This document shows positions 52,323 through 60,001 of a stretch of 64,000 nt of DNA, piece after piece. Origin of the DNA: Erythrobacter sp. F6033 (GTDB lineage Bacteria > Pseudomonadota > Alphaproteobacteria > Sphingomonadales > Sphingomonadaceae). The position numbers and the translations under genes are program-made. The stretch covers positions 1,674,001 through 1,738,000 of the forward strand of contig NZ_JALKAZ010000001.1 of the NCBI RefSeq assembly GCF_023016005.1, read 5' to 3'. How positions within the stretch are numbered: position 1 is the first letter of the stretch; each line of letters starts with the position of its first letter. The notes beneath the pieces were generated by a model. That model did no database searches. It had not been told where the DNA came from and saw nothing but the letters and a program-made list of their open reading frames with translations.

Positions 52323-54056
52323 ATGAAGACTTGGATCACATTGGGCACGTGCATCGCGCTGGGTTTATCGGCACCCGCCTTTGCCCAACCAGAACAAGCC
52401 ACCGGACCGGAACTGTCAGCAGAAAAACTGGAAGAACGCAGGGCAACCTTTGCGTGGCTGCTGGGCACCTGGAACGGCGACCATATGTTCGGGCCCAACT
52501 CAAACCGCAGCGGCGCCGCCGTTACGTTTTATCTGGAACAAGATGGCACAGTATCGGCGCGGCTCGATAGACTAAGTCCTTGGATGGAGAGCAGCGAAAA
52601 GCGCTTTCGCGACATGGTAGGCAAACGCATCATCAGAGGGATAAATGCGTCTGGCGCTCCGCGTTCTGTTTGGTCCAATTCTGCAAGCGGCGGAGAAGTC
52701 TTTGACAAAAACAGCGGAAATTGGACCAATCTCGGCATCATCTATGTCAGCCGAGACGATGGCAAATTGAGCCATCTTGGCGCGATGAGCGACTTTTCCC
52801 ATTGGGTGAAGGTTTCCGGATCAGCAGGTTCAACCGGCACACGCGATGCTCCATCATCACGGAACACCACTCCGTCGTCACCGGGAGCAAAATCAGCAGA
52901 CCCGCAGCCAAATGCAGAGCCCACCCAAGACAGCTCCGATGATAGCCAGCGACGATGCCATCTGATTACCTATATCGAATTGCTGACCAAAGGGACTAGC
53001 AAGGCCATCACGGACTTCGATCAAAAAACTGATCGCATAGCGGTCTATGATGACTCCCTACCAGCGGTGCGCCTCTACCCTTCCCCAATCAAAAGCTCAG
53101 CGGACATCCCAGATTTCATGACTGCAGAGCAATATCTCACCCTTGATCGCTTGGAAGTGTTGGTCGCTGAAACGGTCAAAAACCGCGGCCCCGATGACGC
53201 TTTGAAGGGGTATCGTACTGCGCTGATCACAATGCACAGAAGGGCGGCGGATCAATATGAAGGCGCAGGGATCCGCGCCGCCGATGCATTCAAGCCATGC
53301 CCGGATTACTCAGAGTCTGTCCCTCAGGCCTTCTTGCTAGCTGCCGAAACAAACATGGATGCTCTGCGTCAGCGACGTGACAAACAGCTTAAACCCTTGC
53401 TGGCTGAAGCCGACGCGTTGAACGAGACGCTAATGCGCAAATTCTATGGCGAACTGGATGATGCCCGATCATTGGAAAGCAAAGCGAAAGCCTGGGTAAG
53501 CGAACAGATCAAAGATGCCTTCAAAAAGGAAGGAGTAGAACCCGCCAAGATTGACGCTCTCATTCCGCAACTTGATGCCCTTCGGGACCAATATCGCCGA
53601 CTTGCCGAAGCTGGCACTCCTGTCAGCGATCAACAGCAATCAGCTGACCTTGCAGAGGCGCTGAAAAGAGCCGGGATCGCCTACGATCCAGCGCGCGATG
53701 TCGACAAGCCATTGGATACCGCCCAGTCGATCACGGCCAAGCTCTTCAACTACATGAAGGGCCAAATTGTCGGGCCGGGTCCGAAAGATATCTTTTCCTA
53801 TTATTCGAAAGTGGCTGGCTATGTTGGCCTTGTCAAAGACACTGCGGAAATCATCAACGCTATGAAGAACCTCTATGATCTTTGGGGTATCCGCCAAGAG
53901 CTGATGCCGGTTGCCCTCGCCGCAGCAGAAGATCGCGCCTATCTCATCGGTCTGATCGAGCGCTATGACCGCGTCGAAGCGGAGTATCTAACGCTGCAAA
54001 ACCGATTCAAAGAAGAGGTCAATAAGAGCGCGGCGCAAGGAAATCGAACCTACTGA
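52323..54056 (+). CDS. Secreted protein of unknown function, 577 aa
   Basis: Not recognised. A signal peptide (ITLGTCIALGLSAPAFAQ) is followed by a domain with LLGTWNGDHMFGP (about 45-60), a Ser/Pro/Asn-rich linker (170-205) and a long helical C-terminal half with heptad-like stretches (LKPLLAEADALNETLMRKFYG). Final segments contain YYSKVAGYVGLVKDTAEII and a hydrophobic-polar helix. It is probably periplasmic. The GAGGGGG site before ATG 52323 is strong. It opens the plus-strand run that leads into the TIR, protease and SLOG genes, with 96 bases between it and the TIR start. Confidence 0.7.
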   Translation: MKTWITLGTCIALGLSAPAFAQPEQATGPELSAEKLEERRATFAWLLGTWNGDHMFGPNSNRSGAAVTFYLEQDGTVSARLDRLSPWMESSEKRFRDMVGKRIIRGINASGAPRSVWSNSASGGEVFDKNSGNWTNLGIIYVSRDDGKLSHLGAMSDFSHWVKVSGSAGSTGTRDAPSSRNTTPSSPGAKSADPQPNAEPTQDSSDDSQRRCHLITYIELLTKGTSKAITDFDQKTDRIAVYDDSLPAVRLYPSPIKSSADIPDFMTAEQYLTLDRLEVLVAETVKNRGPDDALKGYRTALITMHRRAADQYEGAGIRAADAFKPCPDYSESVPQAFLLAAETNMDALRQRRDKQLKPLLAEADALNETLMRKFYGELDDARSLESKAKAWVSEQIKDAFKKEGVEPAKIDALIPQLDALRDQYRRLAEAGTPVSDQQQSADLAEALKRAGIAYDPARDVDKPLDTAQSITAKLFNYMKGQIVGPGPKDIFSYYSKVAGYVGLVKDTAEIINAMKNLYDLWGIRQELMPVALAAAEDRAYLIGLIERYDRVEAEYLTLQNRFKEEVNKSAAQGNRTY

Positions 54057-54141
54057 TAATTTGAAGAACCGCATCGTTTGAGCCGCGCTGTTCCCATCAC
54101 CCTTGCCTTGGTTTAGATGACAGATCGCATTGAAACTCAAC

Positions 54142-54147
54142 GGGGGA
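54142..54147 (+). promoter_or_regulatory. Shine-Dalgarno site deciding the TIR-gene TTG start
   Basis: GGGGGA lies 5 bases before TTG 54153. The upstream in-frame ATG at 54117 has no such site, so translation most likely begins at TTG. Confidence 0.65.
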
Positions 54148-54152
54148 ACACA

Positions 54153-56099
54153 TTGAGCGACACCATCCCTTCTGGTGACTCCGCAAAGTCGATCTTCTTT
54201 AGCTATTCGCGCGCTGATCGAGAGCAAGTCCTCCCGATCATCAACGCCTTAGAGCAAGAAGGGCACTCACTGTGGTGGGACGGCATGCTCAAAGGTGGGG
54301 ACCGGTTTTCTCAGGTTACCGAAAACGCACTCGAAACGGCGAGCGTCGTTCTGGTCATGTGGACGGCTACTTCGGTCAATTCGGATTGGGTCCGTGATGA
54401 GGCCACCCGTGGACGCGACAGAAAACGCCTCCTTTCGGTTTCTCTGGACGGAACAGAGCCACCGCTCGGTTTTCGTCAAACGCAATACATCGATCTGTCA
54501 GGAGAAGGTGGCGTAACAGCGCGACCGGCGTTTGCGCAGGTGCTCGAAGCGTTGAACCGAATGCAAGGTAGCGATGACACGGGAAGCACTGCCCTGCCTG
54601 TTGCACCATCTGCTGGCGAACCGACACGGCGCGGCGCATTGATCGCTGGCGGATTGTCATTGGCGGCACTGGGTGGTGGCTATGCAGCTTGGCAGGCTGG
54701 GCTATTTGGTGGCGGAAACACACCGAATAGCATCGCTGTAATGTCGTTTGAAAACCTCAGTGGTGATCGTGAGCAAGACTATTTCTCCGCCGGACTTGCA
54801 GAAGAATTGCGGAGCATTCTCAGCCTAAATCGCCAATTGGCGGTTGCTGCTCAAACCTCATCTGACAAGTTTTCCGACGGCACCCAAACGGCAAGCGCGA
54901 TCGCAAGCGCATTGGACGTCGCCAATGTGCTGGAAGGCAGCGTCCGTCGTTCCGGCAATAGAATGCGTATCGCTGTGCGGTTAATCGACGGGTCAAACGA
55001 CCTTGAGGTTTGGTCCGATCAGTTTGATCGGGAATTGGACGACGTTTTGTCGGTCCAGACAGAGATCGCAACGCGTGTGGTTGACTCGCTCATTGCAAAC
55101 TTCGCCGGGCAGGATGGGCTTGGAACCACCCGTATCGGCGGGACCGATAGCAGCGATGCGCTTGATGCCTATATGCGCGGGGTCGACCTTTATGGCCGCG
55201 CAGGAGCAGAAGAAGGCACAGATCGAGCCGCTCTTGCAGCGTTAGATCAGGCGATCGAACTGGATTCAAGCTATGGTGCCGCACACGCAGCCCGCTCTCG
55301 TGTATTAACTGCGGTCGGCAATCGGCATGCGTCGAGCGCTGATGAGCTTAAATCCTATTATCGGCAAGCTACCGAGGCCGCGCAGCAAGCCATCGCTCTG
55401 GCCCCAGACTTGGCCGAAGGGCATTCGGCTCTGGGTTCGGCTTTGACGAATGGCTCGCTTGATATGGCAGGCGCCCGGCAGCCCTATGACCGCAGCTTTG
55501 AATTGGGTTATGGCAATGCGCGGATCCTGATGAGCTATGCCCTGTTCGCTTCGTTCATTGGATCTTTCGCAAAGGGCCGCGATTCAATCGCCCGCGCAGA
55601 ACGCTTGGACCCCCTGAACGCACCAGTATTTCGTGCCAGTGCCGTCCTAGAATTCGCCGCGAGAAATTACCCCAAAGCCACCGAGGAAGCACGCCGTGCT
55701 CTCTCACTGAATGAAGGGACGAGCATCGCCAACCGGATCTTGGGCGACATTGCCAGATTTGAAAATCGCTTCGATGAGGCAAGAGAGTTCTACGCAAAGG
55801 AACCGAGCGTTCTGTCGAGGCTTTCAGGCATCGCCATGCTTGAACAGAAAGCTGGCAATCCCAAAGCGGCAGAGACCGCATTTGATGCCATGGTCGACGA
55901 ATTTGGCGAAAACAGCCTGTACCAACAAGCGCAAGTGATGGCGCAATGGGACCGACCGCAAGAGGCACTGGAATTGCTCAATCGCTCGTATGAAGTTGGA
56001 GATTCCGGGCTCGTCCTTTCCCATTCGGACCAGAATCTCGATCCCATTCGACAAGCTCCAGCTTTTCAGTCATTACAACGGCGACTTGGGTTCGCTTAA
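54153..56099 (+). CDS. TIR - transmembrane - TolB-like - TPR protein
   Basis: A 648-residue protein. Residues 12-135 form a TIR domain (SIFFSYSRADREQ; catalytic-type Glu 83 in SDWVRDE, with Trp 79). A membrane helix at 161-181 (GALIAGGLSLAALGGG) follows. Residues 190-315 resemble a TolB N-terminal/FlgO-type domain (IAVMSFENLSGDREQDYF, then NVLEGSVRRSG), and about 330-640 are tetratricopeptide repeats. The retained Glu argues for NAD-cleaving activity, known in bacterial TIRs. The TolB-TPR half is commonly fused to signalling outputs in alphaproteobacteria. A long periplasmic sensor half with a cytoplasmic TIR is inferred. Confidence 0.85.
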   Translation: MSDTIPSGDSAKSIFFSYSRADREQVLPIINALEQEGHSLWWDGMLKGGDRFSQVTENALETASVVLVMWTATSVNSDWVRDEATRGRDRKRLLSVSLDGTEPPLGFRQTQYIDLSGEGGVTARPAFAQVLEALNRMQGSDDTGSTALPVAPSAGEPTRRGALIAGGLSLAALGGGYAAWQAGLFGGGNTPNSIAVMSFENLSGDREQDYFSAGLAEELRSILSLNRQLAVAAQTSSDKFSDGTQTASAIASALDVANVLEGSVRRSGNRMRIAVRLIDGSNDLEVWSDQFDRELDDVLSVQTEIATRVVDSLIANFAGQDGLGTTRIGGTDSSDALDAYMRGVDLYGRAGAEEGTDRAALAALDQAIELDSSYGAAHAARSRVLTAVGNRHASSADELKSYYRQATEAAQQAIALAPDLAEGHSALGSALTNGSLDMAGARQPYDRSFELGYGNARILMSYALFASFIGSFAKGRDSIARAERLDPLNAPVFRASAVLEFAARNYPKATEEARRALSLNEGTSIANRILGDIARFENRFDEAREFYAKEPSVLSRLSGIAMLEQKAGNPKAAETAFDAMVDEFGENSLYQQAQVMAQWDRPQEALELLNRSYEVGDSGLVLSHSDQNLDPIRQAPAFQSLQRRLGFA

Positions 56100-56120
56100 C
56101 GTCTACCAATAGGGGGTATT

Positions 56121-56318
56121 ATGAAGAAAATCGTCCTTTCCACTGTCGTGTTCGGTACTGCACTGGGCCTCGCGGCATGTGCGCCAGAAGCCGAAGAAGC
56201 AGACGCACCAGAAACTGCTGAAGTCGTAGCTGAAGAAGATTCAACGGACGACGCGATGGTCGCATCTGACGAAGCCACTGGTGAGTTGGACCCCGATGGA
56301 AATCCGGTCGATCAGTGA
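56121..56318 (+). CDS. Small acidic lipoprotein, 65 aa
   Basis: A very short lipoprotein. Signal MKKIVLSTVVFGTALGLAAC with Cys 20 is followed by an acidic, low-complexity tail rich in Glu, Asp and Ala, with no Trp or Cys beyond the lipobox. AGGGGG lies a few bases before ATG 56121. It begins 21 bases after the TIR gene and lies 51 bases before the protease, so it is likely in the same operon. An anchoring or spacer role is possible; no family is recognised. Confidence 0.75.
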   Translation: MKKIVLSTVVFGTALGLAACAPEAEEADAPETAEVVAEEDSTDDAMVASDEATGELDPDGNPVDQ

Positions 56319-56326
56319 TCGGCCAT

Positions 56327-56361
56327 CTCAATCGCCTCGGTTAGAACGAGGCCTGATTGAG
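56327..56361 (+). other. Bulged hairpin just before the protease gene
   Basis: A 13-pair stem (CTCAATC/GATTGAG, GCCTCG/CGAGGC) with a 2-base bulge and a 7-base loop. It ends 8 bases before ATG 56370, so it would cover the ribosome-binding region of the protease mRNA. No T-run follows, making a translation-control structure or RNA stabiliser likelier than a terminator. Confidence 0.5.
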
Positions 56362-56369
56362 AACTATCC

Positions 56370-57878
56370 ATGACAATGGATTTCACAGAATTACGCCAAA
56401 AGCTCGGATCGTTCTCGATCCCGGGCTTTTGGTGTCTTCTGGCTCTGAGTGTTGGGGCAATCAGCGCTCCGGCAAATGCCTCAATTCAAACGCCAAATCC
56501 CGTTTTGGCTGCACCGCAGGATGCGTATGATCAGGTAATTGCCGAGCTCTATGATGAAGAACTGGCCGAATTCAGGTCCTTCTATGACAGCCTGACAAGC
56601 GACGGGGTCAGGGTTTTTACCCGTATGATCGCGCAACTTGATGAAGGTCAGCGAGGGACAATGGGTCTCTTGCTCGCGCGCGCTGACAAAACACCAGCCA
56701 GCCGTTTCTTAAACCTGTTCAACAGCTTTGATGACGCGGAATTTGCCAAGGTTGCACGCTCTTTTAAGCTTCGCGACTACGACGACTGGGAGGCCGCGAT
56801 CACATTGCTTTCCTATGAAACGGCGAAAGATACCCGTGCTGAATTTCTTCAAGATGAAAGCTACCAATGTCATGCGCCGGACATGCCTGACCAAAACAGC
56901 GATCTGGAAGGCGAAACCGATAGCGGGCCTCATCTTCAGCTATGCAGTGAAAACATCATTCAATTTCGCAAGGCATTTTTTCCCACAACCCGTCGGGTAA
57001 CGCGTGGGGTCGATCTGCGCCTCGATACGGCTCCATGGCAGGGCCAAGTATCGCTCTTCGGGCCGAGCACCAAAGCGTATCACGGAGCCAGCGCACGCGC
57101 CGATCAGGTCAAACAATTCGGACGAGCGCTGAAAGATTGGGAAATCAACCACACCTGCGGTGCAGTCTATATCGGCGACCGGTTTCTTTTGACGGCGGCA
57201 CACTGCGTTTACAGCAAGACGCTTAGCAACAAGCGGTTTTTCGACGGTCGAAGAATTCGGCTCGGTTCGCATAGGGTCGATAATCTGGACAACCTTATCC
57301 CGATCCGGACTGTCATCACGCACCGTGACTATGACAGCAAAACGCTCCGCAATGACATCGCATTGATCGAACTGGTATCTGAACCGAGGATGCAGCAAGT
57401 CCGCAGAGCCAAACTTCCGCCAAGCGCTCGATTTGTGCCTCGTCCGGGCCGATTGATGTTGAGCGGCTGGGGCTATGTACGAAGGACGGCCAGTTCCTCG
57501 AATGCGCGCGGACTGGATGGGCAATTCCAGTATAGAGCGTTTGACCGGCTGCAAGGCGGCTTGCTCGACCTGTATGCCCCTAACATCTGCAACAACAACA
57601 GAGTCTTCCGCGCAAATCGGTTGAGAATTCGTCCGGGTCAGCTTTGTGCCGGCACAAAGACCGGAATCGATAGCTGCCGGGGTGACAGTGGCGGCCCACT
57701 GGTCGATCTGAGGACCGATACCCTCGTCGGCCTCGTCTCTGGTGGGAAAGGGTGCGGCATAATCGGTACGCCATCGGTTTACGTCGATGTCGCCCATTAT
57801 CTTGATTGGATAGCCAAGGCGAAGGCATTGGCTCGTCGATCCTCGGCCAAAACGCGGCGCACCTATCCCGCAAGCTGA
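56370..57878 (+). CDS. Secreted trypsin-like serine protease with N-terminal helical domain
   Basis: A 502-residue exported protease of family S1. A signal-type segment (about 15-38, ending APANAS) is followed by a helical, acidic N-terminal part (about 50-170) unlike trypsin. The protease domain runs about 235-495, with catalytic His 278 in LLTAAHC, Asp 329 in RNDIALIEL and Ser 440 in GDSGGPL. Several Cys pairs suit the periplasm or cell exterior. Asp in CRGDSGGPL surroundings suggests a trypsin-like pocket, but specificity is not certain. Possible zymogen-like control by the N-terminal part is inference. Confidence 0.88.
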   Translation: MTMDFTELRQKLGSFSIPGFWCLLALSVGAISAPANASIQTPNPVLAAPQDAYDQVIAELYDEELAEFRSFYDSLTSDGVRVFTRMIAQLDEGQRGTMGLLLARADKTPASRFLNLFNSFDDAEFAKVARSFKLRDYDDWEAAITLLSYETAKDTRAEFLQDESYQCHAPDMPDQNSDLEGETDSGPHLQLCSENIIQFRKAFFPTTRRVTRGVDLRLDTAPWQGQVSLFGPSTKAYHGASARADQVKQFGRALKDWEINHTCGAVYIGDRFLLTAAHCVYSKTLSNKRFFDGRRIRLGSHRVDNLDNLIPIRTVITHRDYDSKTLRNDIALIELVSEPRMQQVRRAKLPPSARFVPRPGRLMLSGWGYVRRTASSSNARGLDGQFQYRAFDRLQGGLLDLYAPNICNNNRVFRANRLRIRPGQLCAGTKTGIDSCRGDSGGPLVDLRTDTLVGLVSGGKGCGIIGTPSVYVDVAHYLDWIAKAKALARRSSAKTRRTYPAS

Positions 57879-58054
57879 ATTGAGTAATCCGCCAACACGC
57901 CAAACTGTTGGATTATCCCTGGGAAATGCGTATCGAATTTTGAGCGCCCGAAGAGATCGACGACAAAGGACTTTCAGTCATTCCTGCGAATTCCACTTCG
58001 GCTAAAGACAAAGGGAGCGCACCGCCGCTGCCCAATCCGTGTTTTTCTCTCAGT

Positions 58055-60001
58055 GTGACCGGGCATCGCGCTTCGCATTCTTCTTTTCCAAACGACACGA
58101 GCCAGCTTGATGCGGCGATCGATCAGATCTTTTGTGAGATCGACGCAGTACTGAAGGATTTTCAAGAAAGTACGGTATCAATCGGCGCTCCATCCGTCCG
58201 ATTGCATACGCTTTTGTCCGATGGCGCAGACCATCACGCGGCAAGGCGCGGCCTTGATCGGGGATGGGATCTTTCGACACCCCTTCCCTTTGGCCAGGCA
58301 TTGAACGCGGCAATCAATGCCGATGTCCAGACTGTGGCTGATGCAAAGGCAGTTCTTGCGGGTCAACAGGTCGCAGATAGCGAAGCCGCCAACCGTTTGG
58401 CAGCCATCAGCGATCTTATGAACAAGAGCCGAGTTTTCGAACTTGCTGATGACGATGCGCGATTAACAGAGCTTTTTCTGGCCTCTCTGAGCAAACAATC
58501 AGACGCTTCTGCGACCGCCCAGTTCGCTTCCGAATCTGGGAAGCGTGTGGCTCTGGCGGGCCGAATTTTAATAGAACAGTCCGATCTGGTCATCGCGATA
58601 TGGGACCAAGCGACGACGGCGAATATCGGCGGCACCGGGCACACTGCCTTGGCTGCGCTCAACGCTGGTATCCCCGTGCTCTTGATCGATCCCGTGACCC
58701 CGGATGCGTGGCGAGTGGTGCTGGCGCCTGAGGATTTGGCGTCGACTACCGTCTATTCGGAAAGCAGCGACCGATTGTCCTCGCTTCACCAAATCGTCTT
58801 GGCCGCTGTATCGGTCGGTGAGAAAGGTGATAGCGGCGATCATTCCGGTCTCAAGACTCTCGACGCCGAGCATTGGCGGGACCAGAGCAGTGTATTGAGC
58901 CATGCATTTCGTCGCACAGAAATGCTGTTTGGCGAAACGGGTGTTTGGCGCAGGTTTGCATCAGTGCGGCAAACCTATGAGCGACCTGAAGAGATCGCAG
59001 CGGGCAGCGCAAAAGCCCTTATCGTTGCTGCAAGTGCAATGTCACCGGGCGGTAGCTCTGTGGACGAAAGCATAACCCAGCAGATTTTGCCGCGTTTCGC
59101 TTGGTTGGACGGAATTTCCGCGCACCTTTCAGACCGTCACCGTTCGGGAATGACGCTCAACTTCATCCTTGGTGCCTGCGCGATTATTGGCGGTATTCTT
59201 TACTTGCCGCTGGTTGATCCGGCACAAAAGTGGATATTCGCCTCGATCGAGCTGGCGTTCCTGCTTGCAATCTTGCTCAACACATCAATCGGTCGAAAGC
59301 TTCGCATTCATGACCGATGGTTTGAGACAAGGCGTGCAGCAGAATATCTAAGATACAGTCCGATGCTCAGCATTTTGGGCGTTGCCCGGCCTGCGGGCGA
59401 GTGGCCGCACGGTGCGAAGAGCCGTTGGCCGGAATGGTATGTCAAACACACGAACAGAGCGGTCGGATTGCCAGAGTGCACTGTCGATGAAGCTTACTTG
59501 AAGTCGTCACTCACCATTTTGCGCGATCACTATGTCGACCCTCAACGCAATTACCACCGCGCTAAATCAGAACGTCTTTCGCGCGTCCATCACGGGCTGG
59601 ATCACCTTTCTGAGTGGCTATTCATCGGCGGTGTTCTCTTCGTGGCGCTGTACCTCGTCTTGGCGGGCCTTTCAGCGTTTTCCGTCATTGATCCCAATTG
59701 GCTTACGCGGTCGGCGAAATGGTTCACCGTGCTTGCGGTAGCGATGCCCACTTTGGGCGGTGCACTCGCAGGCATTCGATATTTCGGCGATTTTGAAAGG
59801 TTTGCCGAGATATCCGATGTCACTTCTGAAAAGCTGGACGCGATAGCCGATCGGCTTGGCGTGATATTGAACGCGTCTGACAACGCCATCACATACAGTC
59901 ATGCCTCTGAAATCATGCGTGCTGCCAACGATGTGGTGTTCGCTGAAATACAGAGCTGGCAATCGGTGTTTCGCCGGAAAGTCATCGCAGTCCCGGCTTA
60001 G
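58055..60001 (+). CDS. SLOG-like domain fused to SLATT/DUF4231-like membrane domain
   Basis: A 648-residue protein. About 1-270 looks like a SLOG-type Rossmann domain: VTGHRA at the first strand, then a glycine-rich IGGTGHTALAALNAG loop near 190. Two helix pairs follow, near 369-415 (NFILGACAIIGGILYLPLV) and 521-580 (WLFIGGVLFVALYLVLAGL), with W-x3-R-x2-AEYLR between, as in SLATT/DUF4231 proteins. GTG 58055 is the first ordinary start, but it removes strand residues before VTGHR that are encoded in frame (FSLS). CTG 58028, 10 bases after AGGGAG, may be the true start. A nucleotide-sensing membrane effector is inferred. Confidence 0.72.
   Translation: MTGHRASHSSFPNDTSQLDAAIDQIFCEIDAVLKDFQESTVSIGAPSVRLHTLLSDGADHHAARRGLDRGWDLSTPLPFGQALNAAINADVQTVADAKAVLAGQQVADSEAANRLAAISDLMNKSRVFELADDDARLTELFLASLSKQSDASATAQFASESGKRVALAGRILIEQSDLVIAIWDQATTANIGGTGHTALAALNAGIPVLLIDPVTPDAWRVVLAPEDLASTTVYSESSDRLSSLHQIVLAAVSVGEKGDSGDHSGLKTLDAEHWRDQSSVLSHAFRRTEMLFGETGVWRRFASVRQTYERPEEIAAGSAKALIVAASAMSPGGSSVDESITQQILPRFAWLDGISAHLSDRHRSGMTLNFILGACAIIGGILYLPLVDPAQKWIFASIELAFLLAILLNTSIGRKLRIHDRWFETRRAAEYLRYSPMLSILGVARPAGEWPHGAKSRWPEWYVKHTNRAVGLPECTVDEAYLKSSLTILRDHYVDPQRNYHRAKSERLSRVHHGLDHLSEWLFIGGVLFVALYLVLAGLSAFSVIDPNWLTRSAKWFTVLAVAMPTLGGALAGIRYFGDFERFAEISDVTSEKLDAIADRLGVILNASDNAITYSHASEIMRAANDVVFAEIQSWQSVFRRKVIAVPA

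Follow-up and report, generated by a model that had tools for sequence, protein, structure and literature searches.

Do a TIR protein, a small lipoprotein, an S1 protease and a SLOG-SLATT membrane protein that are encoded side by side form one system, and what would that system do? The question is raised by a stretch of 64,000 nucleotides from Erythrobacter sp. F6033 (contig NZ_JALKAZ010000001.1, positions 1,674,001 to 1,738,000), called the window below. A check of its open reading frames found five plus-strand genes, A (secreted protein), B (TIR), C (lipoprotein), D (protease) and E (SLOG-SLATT), all where the original prediction had placed them. That prediction had NAD or nucleotide products of the TIR domain read by SLOG and the membrane changed through SLATT. 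It is partly supported, by a conserved neighbourhood and by a SLOG fold and paired transmembrane (TM) hairpins in a structure model; the inclusion of gene A is not. The TIR-to-SLOG-to-membrane route is the most economical reading, and the analysis suggests that in many alphaproteobacteria a TIR protein predicted to span the inner membrane, a lipoprotein, a protease and a SLOG membrane protein relay an envelope signal to a channel via a messenger derived from nicotinamide adenine dinucleotide (NAD).

The TIR protein and its putative SLOG-SLATT partner

Gene B scores 72.6 bits against the TIR_2 profile (PF13676; cut-off, 28) and is the single match at an E-value of ≤0.001 in the 3.04-Mb genome. 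Its Glu95, which we take to correspond to the catalytic Glu of TIR NADases, is the same residue in all 30 of the relatives aligned. This numbering starts from the ATG; from the TTG the residue is Glu 83, which had been reported as retained. The sensor part of B has a predicted fold like the periplasmic one of CadC, a feature overlooked earlier, and the TIR_2 domain occupies the place of the N-terminal DNA-binding domain of CadC/ToxR, no such domain being recognized in B. B may resemble CadC/ToxR-like one-component receptors in having one TM segment and a CadC-like periplasmic fold, but with TIR where those have a DNA-binding domain. A TM-type stretch was found in 70 of 84 TIR genes at a threshold of 1.2, while 13 of the 84 had none at the threshold used. 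Five genomes of 2.2-2.8 Mb (G094, G141, G153, G166 and G170) have 11-14 TIR_2 matches each, many in frames of 600-700 amino acids like that of B.

The SLOG and putative SLATT parts of the gene E product are barely visible in the window protein alone, which matches DUF4231 (E-value 0.0045) and SLATT_3 (0.097) below the cut-offs. They are backed by the relatives of E, 35 of 40 of which match DUF4231, presumably a family grouped with SLATT, at an E-value of ≤0.05 (best, 2.3e-5); SLATT_1 and SLATT_3 were each seen in 2. A confident structure model has a SLOG fold and two TM hairpins. No SIR2 or macro match was found in Pfam, NCBIfam or PADLOC, and E was not recognized as a Thoeris ThsA. When the E profile was searched against the sequences of solved structures, nothing came under an E-value of 0.77 (a nucleoside 2-deoxyribosyltransferase was at 0.9), and Foldseek was uninformative, with a best E-value of 0.099.

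We kept the best 80 of 159 relatives of E as loci, 39 of them with full 10-kb flanks. By their labels they span Erythrobacteraceae, Sphingomonadaceae, Hyphomonadaceae and other Caulobacterales, with a handful of metagenome bins assigned elsewhere, and they include named culture-collection strains such as Erythrobacter longus DSM 6997. Far from being scattered, these homologs have TIR and S1 genes enriched beside them: among the best 80, a TIR gene was present in the fetched flanks of 49, an S1 gene in 32 and both in 30, and the 39 loci with full flanks gave 28, 23 and 22. There were 12 arrangements with partners, and E stood alone in 29 loci. When the genes within 6 kb of E were clustered in 100 loci, a set that includes duplicates and six distant relatives, TIR came first (53 loci) and S1 second (38). 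An ion-channel cluster was third (12), and the rest had at most 10. This third neighbour is a gene of about 150 amino acids, with an Ion_trans_2 domain in L034:11568-12038 and members of the same cluster in L038, L045 and L047.

Among 397 genomes of the family, B was found in 67 (E-value ≤1e-70), E in 94 (E-value ≤1e-10) and both in 60 (both, B only, E only, neither: 60/7/34/296). The two genes share one contig in 44 of these 60 genomes, lie within 10 kb in 36 and within 3 kb in 33. The Fisher value of 2e-38 is inflated by shared ancestry. TIR genes are frequent in general, with a TIR_2 match in 104 of the order's 196 genomes, and co-presence alone therefore says little; it is the changing gene order, together with closeness and with co-occurrence without adjacency, that argues for a functional tie. 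That the genes are chance neighbours, or hitch-hike in a genomic island, is hardly credible. They are no more than a putative operon, and the module has 2 promoter-like sites, below the shuffled mean of 4.2, in a promoter and terminator scan that was uninformative; but the specific enrichment of partners already contradicts chance for B, D and E.

The surroundings of E vary. WD40 proteins adjoin it in two loci (L093 and L103), and on a Caballeronia plasmid (L152:8034-15434) genes for a SLOG-SLATT relative of E with 25% identity, a TIR protein and an nSTAND1-WD40 protein stand one after another in that order. In a distant alphaproteobacterial group, a TIR gene of a different family lies beside E in four of the six loci examined (L046, L047, L048 and L051). 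The inputs vary and the constant pair is TIR plus SLOG-SLATT, a recurrence that supports a messenger between the two. The pairing with a SLOG protein persists when loci are rearranged and when the TIR type differs, and it fits a messenger better than suicide by NAD+ loss, in which TIR would be an NADase effector that drains NAD+ and E a separate membrane effector or regulator nearby; we consider the latter unlikely.

We give an even chance to an outside-in messenger system, in which a Thoeris-like axis is fed by an envelope sensor. It builds on the domains observed, the conservation of active-site residues, the folds predicted, and the linkage and co-occurrence of the genes. B would be a one-component receptor, whose single TM segment joins a periplasmic sensor of CadC-like/TPR type to a cytosolic TIR enzyme. 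A cue from the envelope, handled with the participation of lipoprotein C and secreted protease D, would alter B, whose TIR domain would then convert NAD+ into an ADP-ribose-type messenger. On binding it, the SLOG domain of E would open or rearrange the two TM hairpins, and the flow across the inner membrane would change. The purpose could be defence or an envelope-stress response.

Lipoprotein and protease as a possible input

The small lipoprotein gene proposed earlier is present, with the lipobox LAAC, and a gene of the same type was found directly after 65 of 97 close TIR genes that have room downstream (70 matches less 5 judged false). These equivalents begin -11 to 113 nucleotides from the TIR stop codon, at a median of about 30 nucleotides past it. 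None followed the 19 other TIR genes, one false match having been removed. This pattern had been overlooked. Of the 99 close TIR genes, 61 have an S1 gene no more than 8 kb away, versus 0 of 20 others. Since lipoprotein and S1 go with the close TIR genes, the genes B, C and D seem to make up a single input unit whose output is E, although one third of the close TIR genes show no lipoprotein. In 20 further TIR-centred loci, 2 of them with a relative of E, the lipoprotein was found in 6 (L133, L136 and L139-L142) and S1 in 5 (L135, L136 and L140-L142).

Gene D matches the Trypsin profile with an E-value of 2.5e-39 (135.8 bits; cut-off, 20.6). The intact triad claimed for it was confirmed, and among the 80 S1 domains in the fetched loci 78 keep theirs whole. 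As a rule, lipoproteins are sorted to the outer membrane unless Asp comes right after the lipid Cys. Of the 63 lipoproteins examined, all but 1 lack this Asp and therefore point to the outer membrane.

The protease pocket and the lipoprotein tail both vary. At what we take to be position 189, the protease carries D, F, Q, T, G, K, A or L depending on the locus, D presumably meaning trypsin-type specificity. The tails have tandem DERTGV, DERTGP, VERTGPQEQ, EDDRTG, NDDRTGA, SNDQG or STDQG, or a GNPIGP-like end. Several tandem copies of a short unit (such as EDDRTG or TGTVERTGPQEQ) occur in the lipoproteins of L172, L061, L065, L034, L158 and L166. A tail motif [DE]R[TSGI] was found in 16 of 24 loci with D189 versus 1 of 31 others, and in simulated evolution on the protease tree this link had a p of 0.0007 with the pocket fixed and 0.002 with both simulated.

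We regard a substrate relation between protease and lipoprotein tail as a lead. As a special case of the messenger system, D might cut after Arg in DERTGV or VERTGP repeats, and the freed short peptides, or the new end, might be read by the TPR region of B, much as proteolysis feeds insect Toll. Such peptide release is doubtful. The acid-Arg motif was picked by eye after the data had been seen, and the link of any K or R in the tail with a trypsin-type pocket is weak (p 0.011). D189 changes about eight times on the tree, only three independent pairs lie on supported branches, and sign tests are not significant. The motif is absent from 8 of the 24 D189 loci (the window, L056, L057, L059, L171, L180, L184 and L187), 5 of which have no Arg in the tail at all (the window, L057, L059, L180 and L187). 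Conversely, L155, with G189, carries the motif, and L177 has an Arg elsewhere in its tail. The TPR fold matches are also unspecific. Taken as a whole, a Toll-like outside-in relay for immunity or stress, in which the secreted S1 protease would process the repeat lipoprotein, the TPR/CadC-like ectodomain would sense the product and the TIR messenger would open a SLOG-gated channel, is quite improbable.

Gene layout and genomic setting

The features are collected in Table 1. GGGGGAA at 54142-54148 precedes the TTG at 54153, which is the likelier start of gene B; the gap of 96 bases given before for A to B holds with this start, as do those of 21 and 51 further on. The gap of 176 bases between D and E is probably smaller. 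The GTG at 58055 sits within the first strand of the SLOG domain, and the frame is open back to 57944, with no further ATG, GTG or TTG. Many relatives of E carry an upstream ATG and additional residues ahead of TGHR, which suggests that the true start of E is probably upstream of this GTG.

Table 1. Genes of the locus and their predicted features, in window coordinates
Feature	Position	Strand	Remarks
Gene A	52323-54056	+	577 aa
Gene B, putative membrane TIR receptor	54117..56099	+	660 aa from ATG 54117; 648 aa from TTG 54153
TIR_2 domain of B, residues 26-130	54192..54506	+	Profile match, E-value 5.1e-20; Glu95
TM segment of B, residues 173-191, RR ahead	54633..54689	+	Hydropathy and charge; modest, mean 1.37
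CadC-like region of B, residues 199-532	54711..55712	+	TPRs run on to residue 660
Gene C, small acidic lipoprotein, tail end GNPVDQ	56121..56318	+	65 aa; lipobox LAAC
Gene D, S1 protease that starts with a signal peptide	56370..57878	+	502 aa
S1 domain of D	57138..57812	+	Triad of His, Asp and Ser complete; position 189 is Asp, presumably trypsin type
Gene E, SLOG-SLATT membrane protein	58055..60001	+	648 aa from GTG 58055
SLOG domain of E, residues 1-252	58055..58810	+	TGHR and GGTGHT motifs
First TM hairpin of E, residues 370-412, DUF4231/SLATT-like	59162..59290	+	Model, relatives' profiles, hydropathy
Second TM hairpin of E, residues 527-574	59633..59776	+	Model, hydropathy

The start of gene A resembles a signal peptide, and its Pfam matches do not rise above chance. 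We rejected it as a module member: no relative was found in the 100 loci searched (L032-L131), and the only one in 61 searched genomes (46% identity) lies away from the module, the 18 kb fetched around it giving no match to TIR, S1 or E.

The setting bears on the purpose. A non-immune role in envelope-stress or quorum signalling, which would be compatible with the messenger mechanism, is possible, though short of probable. CadC is an environmental sensor, and metabolic genes flank the module on both sides in the window. A PADLOC scan (E-value ≤1e-10) of 96 hand-picked genes among 140 flanking ones gave few matches (mad3, 2; HEAT-ARM, 2; mad2, 2; AriA, 1; SAVED_CHAT, 1; mad8, 1), and a defence-island setting is not convincing. 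No match was found in 50,697 phage records, and IMG/VR has one distant relative. The immune side has the patchy occurrence, in 35 of the order's 196 genomes, the recurrence of TIR, SLOG and SLATT in immune systems, and integrase profiles in 3 of the 96 flanking genes. Three plasmid records match. The IMG/VR contig (L197:5001-6677, 28% identity) has no TIR or S1 match in its 10.9 kb.

Known systems and meaning

In Thoeris, according to the accessible text of two reports, the SLOG of ThsA is governed by TIR products (PMC10022894, PMC11204291). As in type I Thoeris (ThsB TIR plus ThsA SIR2-SLOG), the TIR gene here adjoins a gene whose SLOG is predicted to read the TIR product. Unlike there, the effector half is a TM hairpin pair rather than SIR2, the TIR is predicted to be membrane-anchored with a periplasmic sensor, and protease and lipoprotein are partners. 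The accessible parts of two further papers describe TIR-SLATT neighbours of Firmicutes phages and SLATT in GAP1 conflict systems (PMC9503650, PMC7159879). Alike are TIR beside a SLATT-type membrane effector and the presence of trypsin and TIR among the effectors of one network; their SLATT has two TM segments, and those parts describe no SLOG-SLATT fusion, CadC-like receptor or lipoprotein. A SLATT protein is also required for DRT10 phage defence, with a proposed response to a nucleic-acid signal, but there, as far as the available text goes, the partner of the SLATT-type membrane protein is a reverse transcriptase with noncoding RNA (PMC12632851). The TRPM2 channel likewise has a SLOG-type nucleotide domain fused to a membrane channel. 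The combination of CadC-like TIR receptor, lipoprotein and S1 protease was not found in the titles and opening abstract lines that the literature searches listed, subscription papers being largely outside their coverage.

To our knowledge, the best-known bacterial TIR systems sense intracellular events. If the proposal is true, a TIR receptor with a periplasmic sensor and a SLOG membrane protein would carry TIR second-messenger signalling across the envelope, and the module offers a testable four-gene unit. Cleavage of the lipoprotein by the protease, if real, would be a new Gram-negative route from proteolysis to a nucleotide signal.
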